Source: Maridesulfovibrio sp.
Lineage (GTDB): Bacteria; Desulfobacterota; Desulfovibrionia; Desulfovibrionales; Desulfovibrionaceae
Reading direction: 5' to 3'
Length of the DNA: 64,000 bases
NCBI RefSeq assembly: GCF_963676065.1
Contig: NZ_OY780933.1
Coordinates: 1,178,001 to 1,242,000, forward strand
Part shown: positions 16,347-38,371 of the stretch, piece by piece
How positions within the stretch are numbered: position 1 is the stretch's first letter
Layout: every line of letters begins with the position of its first letter
The notes under the pieces: model-generated
Seen by the model: only the letters and a program-made list of their open reading frames with translations
What the model was told of the DNA's origin: nothing
Databases searched by the model: none
Made by a program: the position numbers and the translations under genes

Positions 16347-16432
16347 CGGCGAAGCCCTAATAACAGTTTTTGGGGTTCTTAAAATCTTTTTACATAAAGG
16401 GTTTAAGGACCCGGTAGGGTAGCCGAAGGCAT
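16347..16432 (+). repeat. 86-base structured repeat, copy 1 (upstream of uvrA)
   Basis: This stretch matches the reverse complement of 38286-38371 over all 86 positions with about 80% identity and one compensating pair of single-base indels. It opens CGGCGAAGCCCTAATAA, continues TTTTTGGGGTTCTTAA and ends GCCGAAGGCAT. A CTTAAA/TTTAAG stem replaces the CTTAACC/GGTTAAG stem of copy 2, a paired change that supports RNA structure. The terminal GAAGG is 9-10 bases before the uvrA ATG and is the only candidate Shine-Dalgarno sequence for that gene. The GC-rich 3' stem is weaker here than in copy 2. Confidence 0.8.
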
Positions 16433-16439
16433 TCAATAC

Positions 16440-19184
16440 ATGAAAAAATCTATCCATATTGAAGGTGCGCGCCAGCACAACCTTAAAAATTTAAATCTTG
16501 ATATTCCGCGTGATCAGCTGGTTGTTGTTTGCGGTCCTTCCGGGTCCGGTAAATCGACCTTGTCTTTTGACATCGTTTATGCCGAGGGACAGCGTCGCTA
16601 CGTGGAATCCCTTTCCGCTTACGCACGGCAGTTTCTTCCCCAGCTGGATAAGCCGCAGGTTGATAAAATCGAGGGCTTATCCCCCGCAATTTCTCTGGAG
16701 CAACAATCCACTTCCCGCAACCCGCGTTCTACCGTGGGTACGGTCACTGAAATTTATGACTTTTTGCGTGTATTCTTTGCGCGGCTTGGTAAATTTCATT
16801 GCCCGGAATGCGGCATACCCATCGCGGCTCAGACTTCAGATGAAATTCTGGAGCGGATCATGGCTCTTGGCGAAGGAACCAAGTTTATGCTGCTGGCTCC
16901 GCTGGTGGATCATCAGAAAGGAACGCACAAGGATTTGTTTAAGAAGCTTAAAAAAGAGGGCTTCGTGCGTGTGCGTGTGGACGGTCAGATCTATACCATT
17001 GATGATGTTCCTGATCTTGAGAAAAACAAGAAGCATAATGTAGATCTGGTTGTGGACCGTCTTGTAATCAAGGGCGACATGAAAAAGAGGCTCGGCGATT
17101 CGCTGGAGCTGGCTCTGCGGTACGGTGATGAATCCATAGTTGTTTCCATAATCGGCGGAGAAGATGTTTATCTTTCGACCATGTCCACCTGTCCTTCGTG
17201 TAAAATAAGCATGCCGAAACTTTCCCCGCAGCTGTTTTCGTTTAACAGTCCGCAAGGTGCGTGTACCCTTTGTTCCGGCATCGGCAGTGTTGAATATTAT
17301 GAGCCGGAACTGCTGGCTCCCAACAAGGGACTTTCGCTTAAAACCGGGGCGGTTATTCCGTGGAAATCCCCGAAGATGTTTGAGCGCTATGAAAAGGATT
17401 TCCGGGCATTAGGCAAGAAGCATGGGTTCAAAGTGGATACGCCGTTAAGTGAATTTTCGGCAGCAGCGCACAAGGCCCTTTTCTATGGTGACAAAGAGCT
17501 GGGCTGGGAAGGTGTAGTCGACCTGCTTGAGGTGGGGCACAACCTTGGACGGATCTGGCGCGATGAACTTTCCCGTTTCCGTCAGTCGCGGCCCTGTCCC
17601 GCTTGTGAAGGAGCTAGACTGCGCCCTGAATCTTTGGCGGTTAAGGTGGAAAATGTTTCAATTTTTGAATTTTGCTCCATGTCCATCAAGAGGGCTTTGG
17701 ATTGGTTGGAAGAGCTTGATTTTTCCGGTCATGAACTGCTTATCGCCGAACCTCTTTTGAAAGAATTGACCCATCGTTTGGGTTTCATGGTCAACGTAGG
17801 GCTTGATTACCTGAATCTCGGCCGCAACATGGCGACTTTGTCCGGTGGTGAGGCCCAGCGTATCAGATTGGCCGGTCAGCTTGGGTCTGGTCTGGTGGGT
17901 GTGACCTACGTGCTTGATGAACCCTCCATCGGTCTTCATCCGCGCGATAATGAGCGTTTGATCGAAACCCTGCGTTCTTTGCAGTCCCGTGGTAATACCG
18001 TGCTGGTTGTGGAGCATGATGAATCCACCATCCGCAATGCCGATCATGTTATTGAGATCGGCCCCGGCTCGGGCATGCTCGGCGGGGAAATTGTCTTTCA
18101 GGGAAGTGTGAAAAAACTGCTCGATAAGGCCCAGACCCTGACCGCCAGATACCTGCGTGGTGAACTGGTTCTTGATAAGCCGGACGAGCGGCGCATTCCA
18201 AAGGATTGGATCAAATTAAAAGGGGTTAATACAAACAACCTCAAGAATCTGGATGTGGATATTCCTCTGGGCGTGCTCTGTTGTTTTACCGGGGTATCCG
18301 GTTCAGGCAAAAGCTCGCTGGTAGTGGATTCCATGTACAAGCACCTTGCCCTTTCGCGTGGGGTGAAAGTGGATCAGCCGGGCCGTATCTCCGGTATTGA
18401 AGGAATCGAGAAGATTGAAAAGGTCATCTCTATCGACCAGTCTCCAATCGGCAGGACTCCAAGGTCCAACCCGGCCACCTACACCAAGATATTTGATGAA
18501 ATTCGTAAGATTTTCTGTGCAACCAAAGAATCCAAGAAGCGCGGCTACAAGCCTGGACGTTTCAGCTTTAACGTGCGCGGCGGTCGCTGCGAAGCCTGTC
18601 GCGGTGATGGTCAGATCAGGGTGGAAATGCATTTCCTGCCCGATGTGTATGTGACCTGTGATGTCTGCAAGGGTAAACGTTACAACAGTCAGACTCTGGA
18701 AGTGGATTACAAAGGCAAGAATATTGCGGAAGTTCTGGATATGACCGTGCGTCAGGCCAAGGCCTTTTTTGAGAACCATCCCACCCTGAATCGCAGACTG
18801 GAAGTGTTGGAGCAGGTGGGTCTTGAATATGTTCAATTGGGCCAGCCGGCTACCACGCTTTCCGGAGGGGAAGCCCAGCGGATCAAGATCTCGCGCGAGC
18901 TTGGTAAACGCAGCCTGCCCGGAACCCTCTACATCCTTGATGAGCCGACGACCGGACTGCATATGCACGAGGTGGGCAAGCTTATTAAGGTCCTACAGCA
19001 GCTAGTGGAAAAAGGCGCTACGGTCATCGTCATCGAGCATAATACTGATGTTATCCGTGCGTCCGATTATGTCTTTGATTTAGGACCCGGAGGAGGAGAG
19101 TCCGGGGGGCGGATAGTGGCTCACGGGACTCCTGAAGAAATCATTGCCAATCCTGATTCTGTTACGGGACAATTTTTGGTCTAA
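16440..19184 (+). CDS. uvrA: Excinuclease ABC subunit A
   Basis: DNA-damage recognition ATPase of nucleotide excision repair, 914 residues. Two ABC modules are visible: Walker A CGPSGSGKST near residue 32 with signature LSGGEAQRIRLAGQL, and GVSGSGKSS with LSGGEAQRIKISREL. Zinc-binding cysteine pairs appear as CPECG, then CPSC with a later CTLC, and CEAC with CDVC in the second half. It ends in the usual FDLGPGGGESGGRIVAHGTP. The start ATG at 16440 lies 8-9 bases after the structured repeat, which supplies its ribosome binding site. A bidirectional terminator follows. Confidence 0.97.
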   Translation: MKKSIHIEGARQHNLKNLNLDIPRDQLVVVCGPSGSGKSTLSFDIVYAEGQRRYVESLSAYARQFLPQLDKPQVDKIEGLSPAISLEQQSTSRNPRSTVGTVTEIYDFLRVFFARLGKFHCPECGIPIAAQTSDEILERIMALGEGTKFMLLAPLVDHQKGTHKDLFKKLKKEGFVRVRVDGQIYTIDDVPDLEKNKKHNVDLVVDRLVIKGDMKKRLGDSLELALRYGDESIVVSIIGGEDVYLSTMSTCPSCKISMPKLSPQLFSFNSPQGACTLCSGIGSVEYYEPELLAPNKGLSLKTGAVIPWKSPKMFERYEKDFRALGKKHGFKVDTPLSEFSAAAHKALFYGDKELGWEGVVDLLEVGHNLGRIWRDELSRFRQSRPCPACEGARLRPESLAVKVENVSIFEFCSMSIKRALDWLEELDFSGHELLIAEPLLKELTHRLGFMVNVGLDYLNLGRNMATLSGGEAQRIRLAGQLGSGLVGVTYVLDEPSIGLHPRDNERLIETLRSLQSRGNTVLVVEHDESTIRNADHVIEIGPGSGMLGGEIVFQGSVKKLLDKAQTLTARYLRGELVLDKPDERRIPKDWIKLKGVNTNNLKNLDVDIPLGVLCCFTGVSGSGKSSLVVDSMYKHLALSRGVKVDQPGRISGIEGIEKIEKVISIDQSPIGRTPRSNPATYTKIFDEIRKIFCATKESKKRGYKPGRFSFNVRGGRCEACRGDGQIRVEMHFLPDVYVTCDVCKGKRYNSQTLEVDYKGKNIAEVLDMTVRQAKAFFENHPTLNRRLEVLEQVGLEYVQLGQPATTLSGGEAQRIKISRELGKRSLPGTLYILDEPTTGLHMHEVGKLIKVLQQLVEKGATVIVIEHNTDVIRASDYVFDLGPGGGESGGRIVAHGTPEEIIANPDSVTGQFLV

Positions 19185-36983: not shown

Positions 36984-38279
36984 TTATGCTGCCGGAGCAG
37001 TAGTATGTTTATCGGTCATTATTTTAAGGATGACTTTATCCGTCTGGGCCATACCCACTGAACCCAGCTGCCCCACGTTGCGGATGCAGGCTTCAATGTC
37101 ATCATCGAGGATGCCGTCTTTTCCGGGAATGCAAATCCCTTTCATCGCCAGCAATGCTGAGTTGATGGCTGCTTCAACAGCCGAAGAAACCTTCAGGGCG
37201 CAGGAGGTCTTTGCGCCGTCGCAGATCATTCCGGCAATATCGCCGAGAGTGTTCTTGATGGTGCTTTCCACTTCTTTAAGTCCGCCGCCGAGGATAAGCA
37301 CTATGCCGCAACCGGAAGCTGTGGCGGCAAGGCTTGCTCCGCAGAGAGCGGAAAGCTTACCGAGGTGGCTCTTCATATGCACAGCGGAAAGGTGGCTTAG
37401 AATCAAAGCTCTGACAAGCTGCTCTTCACTTGCGTTACGACGTCTGGCAAAAGCAACAACAGGCAACGTGGCCGTCAGGCCCTGATTGCCGCTGCCGGAG
37501 TTACTCATTACCGGCATCTGAATGCCTTCCATGCGCGCATCAGAAGCTGCTGCGGTAATCTTAATGGCGTAAGAAACTATATCATCGGAACGGATACCGT
37601 CTTCGATATCCTTGGCTATGGATTTACCGACCATAAGTCCCCAATCGGAAGCAAGACCTTCAGCTGCAACCTTCTCATTAAGTTTTACTGCTTCAAGGAT
37701 GAAACTTAAATCTTCCAGCGGGGCTTCGGTGGCGTATTCAAAAATTTCTTTCATGCTCATGGTGCAGCCGGATTCTTTATCCTCGTCGCTGATCAAAGGC
37801 GCTGTGAACAGTTCTTCACCGTTTTTTTCCACCAGCACAATGGCGGAATGCGAGCGTGCAATTACGCAGCGGGCGGAATCTTCACCTTTTTTTACTACAG
37901 CTTCCACGTAGAGTAGTTCTTCCGTATCGGAAAGTTCCACATGGAGCCGGCCGTCCGCGATGAGTTTCTTACCAGCTGCCAGCTGTTCGGCGTTCAGGTC
38001 GCGCAGAACCTCCAGCGCCAGTTCGGATTTACCACCGGTAATACCTACGGCCGCTGCAATGTTCAACCCGGTCATTCCTGTGCCGGGAACGCCTACGCCC
38101 ATTCCGTTTTTGAGCAGGTTGCCGCTGACTTTAACTACAGCGCTTTCAGGCTCGCACCCCAGTGTTTCAGCTGCTTTTGCAGCGGCAAGTGCGATAGCAA
38201 CCGGTTCTGTGCAGCCCAGTGCGGGGACAACTTCACGTTTGAGAATCTCTGCGAATTCAGACCATTTTTTATTTATCAT
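36984..38279 (-). CDS. UPF0597/CyuA-type iron-sulfur L-cysteine desulfidase or serine deaminase
   Basis: 431 residues of the UPF0597 (YhaM/CyuA) family, related to the alpha subunit of iron-sulfur L-serine dehydratase. Conserved cysteines fit a [4Fe-4S] site: LGCTEPVAIALA near the start, then SALCGASLAATASGCGI, and ICDGAKTSC. The glycine-rich MSNSGSGNQGLTATLPVV is also family-typical. The reaction is removal of H2S or water plus ammonia from cysteine or serine through 2-aminoacrylate to pyruvate; which substrate is used here is open. Its SD (GGAGG, 9 bases before the ATG) is the 3' arm of the structured repeat 38286-38371. RidA and a symporter lie upstream on the same strand. Confidence 0.9.
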   Translation of the reverse strand: MINKKWSEFAEILKREVVPALGCTEPVAIALAAAKAAETLGCEPESAVVKVSGNLLKNGMGVGVPGTGMTGLNIAAAVGITGGKSELALEVLRDLNAEQLAAGKKLIADGRLHVELSDTEELLYVEAVVKKGEDSARCVIARSHSAIVLVEKNGEELFTAPLISDEDKESGCTMSMKEIFEYATEAPLEDLSFILEAVKLNEKVAAEGLASDWGLMVGKSIAKDIEDGIRSDDIVSYAIKITAAASDARMEGIQMPVMSNSGSGNQGLTATLPVVAFARRRNASEEQLVRALILSHLSAVHMKSHLGKLSALCGASLAATASGCGIVLILGGGLKEVESTIKNTLGDIAGMICDGAKTSCALKVSSAVEAAINSALLAMKGICIPGKDGILDDDIEACIRNVGQLGSVGMAQTDKVILKIMTDKHTTAPAA

Positions 38280-38285
38280 TATGAT

Positions 38286-38371
38286 ATGCCTCCGGCGGCC
38301 CTGCCGGGGGCCTTAACCTCTTTTTGTAAAAAGGGTTAAGAATCCCAAAAACTATTATTAGGGCTTCGCCG
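38286..38371 (-). repeat. 86-base structured repeat, copy 2 (upstream of the desulfidase-type gene)
   Basis: Read on the minus strand it opens CGGCGAAGCCCTAATAA and ends GCCGGAGGCAT, aligning end to end with 16347-16432. It folds into two hairpins: CTTAACC-CTTTTT against AAAAAG-A-GGTTAAG, a 13-bp stem with one bulge and an ACA loop, and GCCCCCGGC against GCCGGAGGC, with one mismatch. The second stem's 3' arm contains GGAGG, so translation of the next gene could depend on opening this hairpin. This copy is better preserved than copy 1. Confidence 0.85.

Follow-up and report, generated by a model that had tools for sequence, protein, structure and literature searches.

The two 86-base repeats found in the window, a stretch of 64,000 nucleotides from the genome of a Maridesulfovibrio species, are members of a large dispersed repeat family. 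We consider it likely that they are copies of a dispersed, probably mobile DNA element with a variable stem, which would fold as a triplex, have its ends read by an enzyme and serve genes as a Shine-Dalgarno (SD) sequence by exaptation.

Copy 1 (16347..16432, plus strand; stem type A, degenerate) is located upstream of uvrA, and copy 2 (38286..38371, minus strand; stem type A) upstream of a cysteine desulfidase-like gene of the SDH_alpha family, as determined from the sequence, its alignment and BLAST. The initial annotation had placed the copies at these positions and described them as aligning end to end, which was confirmed, the alignment being gapless across the 86 bases. BLAST with copy 1 against the whole 4.23 Mb genome gave 84% identity between the two copies with E = 1.3e-18; together with the gapless alignment, this rules out a chance match. 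The first gene (16440..19184, plus strand, 914 aa) was named uvrA correctly, according to NCBIfam models TIGR00630 and NF001503. The second (36984..38279, minus strand, 431 aa), previously called desulfidase-type, fits this name by its domain match to PF03313 (SDH_alpha). The distance from the end of the copy to the start codon, given as 7–8 bases in the initial annotation, is 7 bases for copy 1 and 6 bases for copy 2. The SD of copy 1, GAAGG (16425-16429, plus strand), ends 10 bases before the uvrA ATG (16440), and in copy 2, 9 bases separate GGAGG (38293-38289, minus strand) from the ATG at 38279. Judged by eye, these terminal sequences are the sole good ribosome binding sites of both genes, in agreement with the initial annotation.

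On one strand, the element has two constant parts, the left motif AAAAGTTTT and the right end GCCGCCGGAGGC(A), which enclose a third-strand segment followed by a hairpin with a variable stem. Its length is 52–84 bases by the strict pattern, defined as AAAGTTTTN{30,60}GCCGCCGRAGGC and used with the reversed pattern as control. Copy 1 starts with the mini-hairpin CGGCGAAGCCC, with a GAA triloop (16347..16357, plus strand; read from the sequence, with the boundary taken from the comparison of copies), followed by AACAG and the third-strand segment TTTTTGGGGTT (16362..16377, plus strand; read from the sequence, with the register taken from the mutual-information contacts). The variable hairpin comes next (16378..16407, plus strand; 5' arm 16378-16391, 3' arm 16396-16407; sequence and RNA fold), then an optional mini-hairpin GACCCGGTAGGGT (16408..16420, plus strand), of which other copies have alternative versions, and the right end GTAGCCGAAGGCAT (16419..16432, plus strand), with two mismatches to the family end GCCGCCGRAGGC. 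In copy 2, on the minus strand, the corresponding parts are the same mini-hairpin CGGCGAAGCCC (38361..38371), AATAG and the third-strand segment TTTTTGGGATT (38341..38356; read and registered in the same way), the variable hairpin CTTAACCC.../...GGTTAAG (38312..38340; sequence and RNA fold) and the right end GCCGCCGGAGGCAT (38286..38299).

Reading of the copies of the same genome revealed a single chassis with at least four stem types, namely that of the window copies (CTTAAACCC/GGGTTTAAG), a second (CCAGAGAAAC/GTTTCTCTGG), a third (CTGGGGAAGGGAAAC/GTTTCCCTTCCCCAG) and a further class of short forms. The optional mini-hairpin that may follow the 3' arm, ahead of the end motif, also occurs with several sequences (CCCCGAAGGG, CCCTCGGAGAG, CCCGGCAGGG and CGCTGAAAGCG). 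The boundaries were read in genome G334, whose copies are nearly identical: similarity ends straight after GGAGGC in 10 of the 10 copies read and, on the left, before (A)AAAG, barring shared extras in some of these ten (the mini-hairpin GCGAAGCGCG in 4/10 and another palindrome in 2/10). The CGGCGAAGCCC mini-hairpin with which both window copies begin seems to be a module of its own, frequently found before the element, and GCGnAGC lies 25 bases or less to the left in 42 of 77 copies from the genus.

Additionally, a second small repeat, GCGC-GAA/GTA/GAT-GCGC followed by ATCAAA, was observed within 45 bases 3' of the element in 15/77 genus copies, for example at the right flanks of L200, L346, L360, L361 and several others, and also before the start codons in some uvrA leaders. 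The GNA triloop of this repeat recalls GCGAAGC, a very stable DNA mini-hairpin. In G093, a distant member of the Desulfobacterota (L261, L265 and L274), the right end GCCGCCGGAGGCA is repeated at least once after the element, with short spacers.

BLAST with copy 1 gave 21 matches in its own genome, including the query and two matches that overlap on opposite strands, and the end motif GCCGCCGRAGGCA was present there, with one mismatch at most, 57 + 49 times, versus 4 + 8 for the reversed control. The strict pattern was present in 18 of 58 genomes, the own genome included, and the reversed control in 0/58. Across 17 genomes of the genus, the number of strict-pattern copies ranged from 0 to 114 (G002, 114; G016, 46; G012, 29; G010, 24; another high-copy congener, 78; G001, zero). 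The 46 copies of G016 (contig G016:C1) are mostly on the plus strand before ~2.19 Mb and mostly on the minus strand after it (33/46 by hand count, the break being chosen afterwards), which may be mere gene orientation.

When 297 genomes drawn from the phylum were searched, 7 had the strict pattern, the own genome included, and 5 the reversed control; the matches of G178, G180 and G204, three of these seven, are without a hairpin and look like chance. A wider genome scan matched at least 118 stretches, mostly in MAGs of Aminicenantes/Acidobacteriota, and other taxa among the matches listed were Pseudodesulfovibrio, Halodesulfovibrio, Desulfovibrio, Desulfoluna and several Clostridia/Oscillospiraceae. 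Matches in Flagellimonas, Saprospiraceae and Polaromonas were discarded, as they look like chance. Copy numbers were high in two Aminicenantes MAGs (151 and 157) and reached 57 and 38 in two other Aminicenantes/Acidobacteriota MAGs and 11 in a Clostridia MAG; the phylum of the first Aminicenantes MAG was sampled with 246 further genomes, none of which had a copy. The initial annotation had reckoned with the possibility of few copies elsewhere, and many were found instead, both in the genus and beyond it.

In the copies aligned, the arms of the hairpin co-vary as Watson–Crick pairs, although the stem sequence differs greatly between copies. A gapless alignment was prepared with 34 of the 37 distinct 56-base copies, the three left out being near-duplicates or having a damaged arm. 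The 13-pair stem was paired in 97.1% of cells, compared with 80.9% after shuffling (0/500 shuffles as high), and its covariation score was 0.508, compared with 0.212 after shuffling (0/500 as high), falling to 0.24 or less when the partner was shifted by one column. Two-sided changes in 8/13 stem pairs (6.3 shuffled; 40/500 shuffles as high) and 18 further pair types (16.7 shuffled; 118/500 as high) were unremarkable. Over 92 distinct 5' arms, 94.7% of the positions were paired, versus 64.1% with shuffled partners, and part of the former value is built in because the stems were chosen by a pairing search. Paired stem substitutions had been proposed to reflect a conserved RNA structure; strong covariation of stem pairs is indeed present, but only between subtypes, and within stem type A RNAalifold detected a two-sided change in 1 of 15 pairs among 14 copies.

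The segment between AAAAG and the stem mirrors the 5' arm, with one base skipped and with C faced by G. As judged from the copies compared, this third strand co-varies with the arms in the same mirror register, and the coupling signal is present in Desulfovibrionales, Aminicenantes/Acidobacteriota and, with few copies, Clostridia. Nine third-strand rules were compared on 83 nonredundant pairs. The mirror rule with C to G was the best (z = 10.7; 0/2000 permutations), followed by the plain mirror rule (z = 9.6). With C to G, z values of 6 to 8 were also reached by the direct-repeat and complement rules, owing to the composition common to the third strand and the arm. Both the reverse complement rule and the complement rule without C to G were rejected, with z near zero. 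In a letter-order test of 73 copies, 60 copies scored higher and 11 lower by the mirror rule than their own letters after shuffling (p = 2.6e-9), versus 31 higher and 40 lower by the direct-repeat rule. By groups, the mirror order test gave 34/2 for Desulfovibrionales, 7/0 for Clostridia and a modest 20/8 (p = 0.036) for Aminicenantes and others.

The same register was obtained from mutual information, which was calculated for all 37 distinct 56-base copies. The best antidiagonal exceeded the best diagonal in the 56-base copies (0.36 vs 0.25) and in those of 59 bases (0.46 vs 0.27). The contacts of the 56-base set were 9-25, 10-24 and 11-23, and then 12-21, 13-20 and 14-19, with one arm base skipped. 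These six contacts, which were defined after viewing the same matrix, had a mean of 0.73 (n = 37), compared with 0.14 for the other cells and 0.07 for permuted rows (maximum of 1000 permutations, 0.13), and in subgroups, which are subsets of the same copies, the mean was 0.41 for Desulfovibrionales (permuted maximum 0.34; n = 11) and 0.66 for Aminicenantes/Acidobacteriota (permuted maximum 0.23; n = 25). The contact 13/20 was A.A in 22 copies and G.G in 15, with zero exceptions. The best partner was located at the contact in 5/6 columns, column 10 preferring 25; in the 59-base copies (contact mean 0.69; n = 33) this was so in 5/7 columns, columns 10 and 13 deviating. Copies within a group are related, and thus the permutation figures are not strict probabilities.

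Most contact pairs are T/T (with A in the 3' arm), G/C, A/A or G/G, which implies the triads T.A-T, G.G-C, A.A-T and G.G-C, the purine strand passing from the 3' arm to the 5' arm at the skipped base. A skipped or shifted base at the strand switch has been described for alternate-strand triple helices, and the mirror-with-skip pattern would be expected for an intrastrand 'alternate-strand' DNA triplex. Canonical triads accounted for 91% of the third-strand letters of 81 copies; shuffling the letters left 85% and permuting the partners 80%, and part of this fit is therefore due to shared composition. The third strand is longer where the arms are longer: the hairpin span minus twice the third-strand length equals 8 in 52 of 73 copies without the mini-hairpin, and the copy lengths belong to one residue class modulo 3 in 53/73. 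Purine third strands are unfavourable in RNA and many copies are located outside leaders, so a DNA triplex is favoured over an RNA triplex.

With respect to genes, the GGAGGC end faces them in the genus. The right end of 77 genus copies had a same-strand ATG within 15 bases in 26 cases and an opposing stop codon in 23, and the left end in 1 and 2, respectively, considering that ORFs of at least 100 codons stand in for genes and that a copy may count twice. A start codon was present 3–13 bases after GGAGG in 9/21 copies of G016, 5/23 of G007, 9/28 of G000 and 3/11 of G334 (the samples of G016 and G007 were 20 stretches each, hand-picked from the copy list and thus non-random), and also in 10/31 first copies of relatives, some G000 copies included; in these samples, 22–43% of the copies of the family had a start codon at SD distance. 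Such start codons were rare in the other groups (1/12 in Aminicenantes/Acidobacteriota and 0/9 in Clostridia), and random positions in the loci gave 8–9% in a similar test. These values supersede an earlier count (25/68 in the genus, 15/135 elsewhere), which was biased by loci chosen for uvrA and the desulfidase. The placement in the genus is therefore oriented and not random, and the claim that the element inserts upstream of start codons is right for the copies next to an ATG, but does not describe those beside an opposing stop codon or those of the other groups.

Additionally, 35 of 221 distinct copies from all groups lie in a reading frame that stays open for 50 codons in either direction, with some spurious frames and two chance matches among them. 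The convincing in-frame copies are those in the linkers of NRPS adenylation domains, before YKTGDLARW (4/13 sites), and of ketosynthase domains, after HVVLEE (4/6 sites); of the remaining NRPS/PKS linker sites, some are without the element and some look like decayed copies. From their motifs, we take the domains of these in-frame Aminicenantes copies to be A and KS domains. The loci, from Aminicenantes/Acidobacteriota MAGs, are L061, L079, L135 and L308 for A domains and L080, L089, L116 and L118 for KS domains, and the copies are read as peptides such as ASGGQGAFLKNRPLDPQKTF.

Eleven flank groups were compared, and two of them, sharing only a repeated mini-hairpin flank, were left out as orthologous sites. 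Upstream of the same gene in G334 and G369 (AhbC/D-like, after a hemB-like gene, by reading), the elements show a one-base difference in each of the three segments at once. At a def-like site of G000 and G016, the arms, the third strand and the mini-hairpin differ and the flanks and the SD agree, and at the L033/L175 site the entire stem type differs. The uvrA leader was compared in 17 genomes: type A occupies the site in G000, and type B occupies it in G007 with the same junctions; in G010 another mini-hairpin comes after type B, and the element is therefore not the uvrA SD there; G002 has CGGCGAAGGCAT only, the single 'empty' site, which may be a deletion product; and G003, G009 and G016 have a longer relative of ~190 bases (L203, L217 and L201). 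Nothing recognisable was found in the uvrA leaders of the remaining genomes read, which were all but G008. The longer relative of G003 begins with GTGAAGACCTAATAAAAGGTTTTG and ends with CGCCGGAGGTAAA.

The leader of the desulfidase-like gene, compared in ten genomes, has the element in six, the copy of G009 being internally deleted, and only the outer stem and the right end in G016; these seven leaders retain the SD at the right end, and those of G008, G013 and G014 have no element. At the L037/L375 site, G000 is without the hairpin yet retains GCCGCCGGAGGCA as SD. A convergent site between a uvrC-like and a metallo-beta-lactamase-like gene (named by eye) has one stem type in G014 and G004, half of it in G005, another stem type in G010 and a remnant in G000; the copies of G016 and G002 are in the opposite orientation, beside the stop codon of the other gene, and no element was present in the stretch read for G006 and G012. 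At this site, G008 (L383) has a long plain hairpin, CGGAGACTTAGG.../...CCTAAGTCTCCG, as if the element had decayed to a simple palindrome.

The simplest reading of the aligned sites is that gains, losses and exchanges of the element all occurred; by eye, no target-site duplication was apparent at them. The initial proposal of a mobile palindromic element is thus supported by the many copies, from 0 to 114 per genome within the genus, by the different stem types at the same orthologous sites, by the presence of both orientations at one intergenic site and by the in-frame copies inside genes of another phylum.

With regard to a mobiliser, matches to Y1_Tnp (PF01797), some of them fragments, were found in 5/18 genomes, namely the high-copy G003 and G007, G334, G093 and the zero-copy G001 (7 matches), and none was found in the own genome or in G002, G010, G012 and G016. 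The presence of Y1 does not track the copy number, since it is absent from high-copy genomes and G001 has 7 matches. No transposase was evident by eye among the 25 largest protein clusters near the copies (118 stretches), which are NRPS/PKS-type and other ordinary genes. A transposon bounded by the ends was also considered and rejected, as the ORFs between inverted copies in L051 and L088 read as ordinary genes. With one copy of one stem type as query, no phage match was found, and the plasmid search gave one weak match to an Enterococcus plasmid (E = 1e-3).

The position of the window copies could also indicate a cis-acting RNA leader, in which an mRNA hairpin would control how uvrA, the desulfidase-like gene and further genes are translated or how stable their transcripts are. 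Start codons at SD distance in the sampled copies (9/21, 5/23, 9/28 and 10/31, in partly overlapping sets) are in accordance with it, as are the stable predicted folds of both leaders: that of copy 1 beats 200/200 shuffles (z -3.7) and that of copy 2 is only moderate, with 7/200 shuffles equally good (z -2.0). However, in either leader the minimum-energy RNA fold is predicted to leave the final 17 of 96 bases single-stranded, and with them four of the five SD bases; the SD would thus sit after the hairpin rather than buried within it, and its description as hairpin-embedded was overstated. Opposing stop codons adjoin nearly as many copies (23/77), other copies are read in frame within coding genes, start-codon placement falls to 1/12 and 0/9 in the Aminicenantes/Acidobacteriota and Clostridia samples, and one orthologous site without the hairpin still keeps the right end. 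Rfam gave no match above the gathering score in the window or in 8 loci, and a permissive scan of 361 bases gave nothing better than E = 2. We therefore regard an RNA leader as very improbable. The proposed post-transcriptional control by a conserved RNA structure is likewise not supported, as most of the SD is predicted to be free, the genes next to the copies have no relationship to each other and DNA base triads better explain how the three strands co-vary. On the other hand, the opposing stop codons and the convergent pair of which both genes are abutted, in different species, could suggest a hairpin of gene ends, working in both directions like a terminator or by stabilising mRNA, that selection would have produced again and again. 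Such an origin is hardly credible in view of the identical ends across different phyla, the near-identical copies of G334 and the copies within coding sequences; in addition, no T run was seen by eye after the element, unlike in intrinsic terminators.

The element could also be of the REP/REPIN type, with a Y1 (RAYT) transposase as its mobiliser; REPs are likewise small, palindromic and gene-flanking, with patchy high copy numbers and sometimes inverted pairs, according to the sections of PMC2817692 considered here. The Y1_Tnp matches of G003, G007 and G334 agree with this possibility, and a cognate Y1 gene could have been lost elsewhere, but the own genome and four others with copies (G002, G010, G012 and G016) have no PF01797 match, no GT(A/G)G head was seen, the copies read running AAAAG...GGAGGC, and a greater length and a third strand set the element apart. 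We thus give this origin very little weight. A less remote alternative, still unlikely in our opinion, is that the coupling of the three segments is real and no triplex is formed, either because a protein reads a purine code flanking the stem or because composition and shared ancestral stem types produce the signal. The 80% of canonical triads with permuted partners, the z of 6–8 retained by several wrong rules and the existence of stem families of shared descent point in this direction. Against it, the antidiagonal with a one-base skip appears in two length classes and two distant groups, most of the signal is gone after letter-order shuffles, and the third strand and the arms have changed jointly at orthologous sites; moreover, strand-switch duplication does not, to our knowledge, yield a mirror copy.

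For the reading preferred here, that of a mobile triplex-folding element, the following course may be proposed. The element would have spread among several bacterial groups and, when single-stranded, would fold into an intramolecular alternate-strand DNA triplex; a putative enzyme acting in trans would recognise this fold and the constant ends, and copy or move the element. In the genus, it would often come to rest with the GGAGGC end beside a gene boundary, and where this boundary is a start codon, GGAGG or GAAGG would be left at SD distance and probably kept by selection, even after loss of the hairpin. The donation of ribosome sites looks like exaptation. Accordingly, the common leader of uvrA and the desulfidase-like gene comes from the presence of the element in front of both, and not from co-regulation.

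More tentatively, it is quite possible that this mobile family, which record titles place in at least three phyla, needs the intramolecular alternate-strand triplex for its life cycle. The stem would be free to vary because recognition by the machinery would depend on the three-stranded shape and on the constant ends, the covariation of all three segments would be an evolutionary record of the triplex in cells, and the constant end would give new genes a ribosome binding site. Triplex formation by DNA in living cells is an old question, and three segments changing together at mirror positions in unrelated bacteria would constitute an evolutionary test of it that is independent of in vitro conditions. 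The family would also represent a new kind of small mobile element to be traced to its enzyme, a natural case of ribosome binding sites handed out by an element and a supply of in-frame insertions in NRPS/PKS linkers.

No description of this element family was found in the open-licence literature searched. MITEs such as BOX, RUP and ERIC are non-autonomous small repeats, sometimes near or within genes. The element resembles them in being non-autonomous, small and sometimes near or in genes (in the portion of the review PMC10969869 considered), and may differ from them, as no autonomous partner was found for it among the 25 largest ORF clusters and no target-site duplication was seen by eye. 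According to the same portion of that review, the Rickettsia palindromic elements (RPE) are about 150 bp long, form several families and are inserted in frame in protein-coding genes. They are thus similar to the element as short palindromic repeats in frame in coding genes (here 4/13 A-domain and 4/6 KS sites), and differ, by description only, in their length of ~150 bp and in that the portion considered mentions neither a third-strand pattern nor a constant GCCGCCGGAGGCA end (PMC10969869).

TMECO, an intrastrand-triplex repeat of E. coli, folds in vitro, no stable triplex having been seen in vivo; its consensus is CCCTCNCCC-GGGNGAGGG-GGGNGAGGG, G/C-rich (CCCTC.../GGG...), and in E. coli it is always intergenic, with no fixed distance to ORFs, as stated in the sections considered of the PIT/TMECO paper (Holder et al. 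2015; PMC4666352), from the main text of which 'Desulfo' is absent. As described there, PIT/TMECO and the element are both short dispersed repeats with a hairpin and a potential third-strand segment and a high copy number in some genomes, and, by sequence, a single strand of the element also contains three segments with the capacity for base triads. On the other hand, the TMECO consensus was not matched by the copies read. In those sections TMECO has one consensus, whereas the element has constant ends and a hypervariable stem with a co-varying third strand; unlike TMECO, its third strand switches duplex sides with a one-base skip and its right end hugs gene boundaries in the genus.

REPs have a GT(A/G)G head followed by a palindrome (PMC2817692, in the sections considered), and REP/BIME are like the element in being palindromic, gene-flanking, mosaic with other small hairpins and patchy in copy number. 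In contrast with that partial description, the element has no GT(A/G)G head, is longer, includes a third strand and is abundant in several genomes without a Y1 transposase. Intrastrand-triplex (PIT/TMECO) repeats, RPE and REPs are thus closest to the element in kind, but it lacks a tested defining feature of TMECO and one of REPs, and is set apart from RPE by comparison of the descriptions only.
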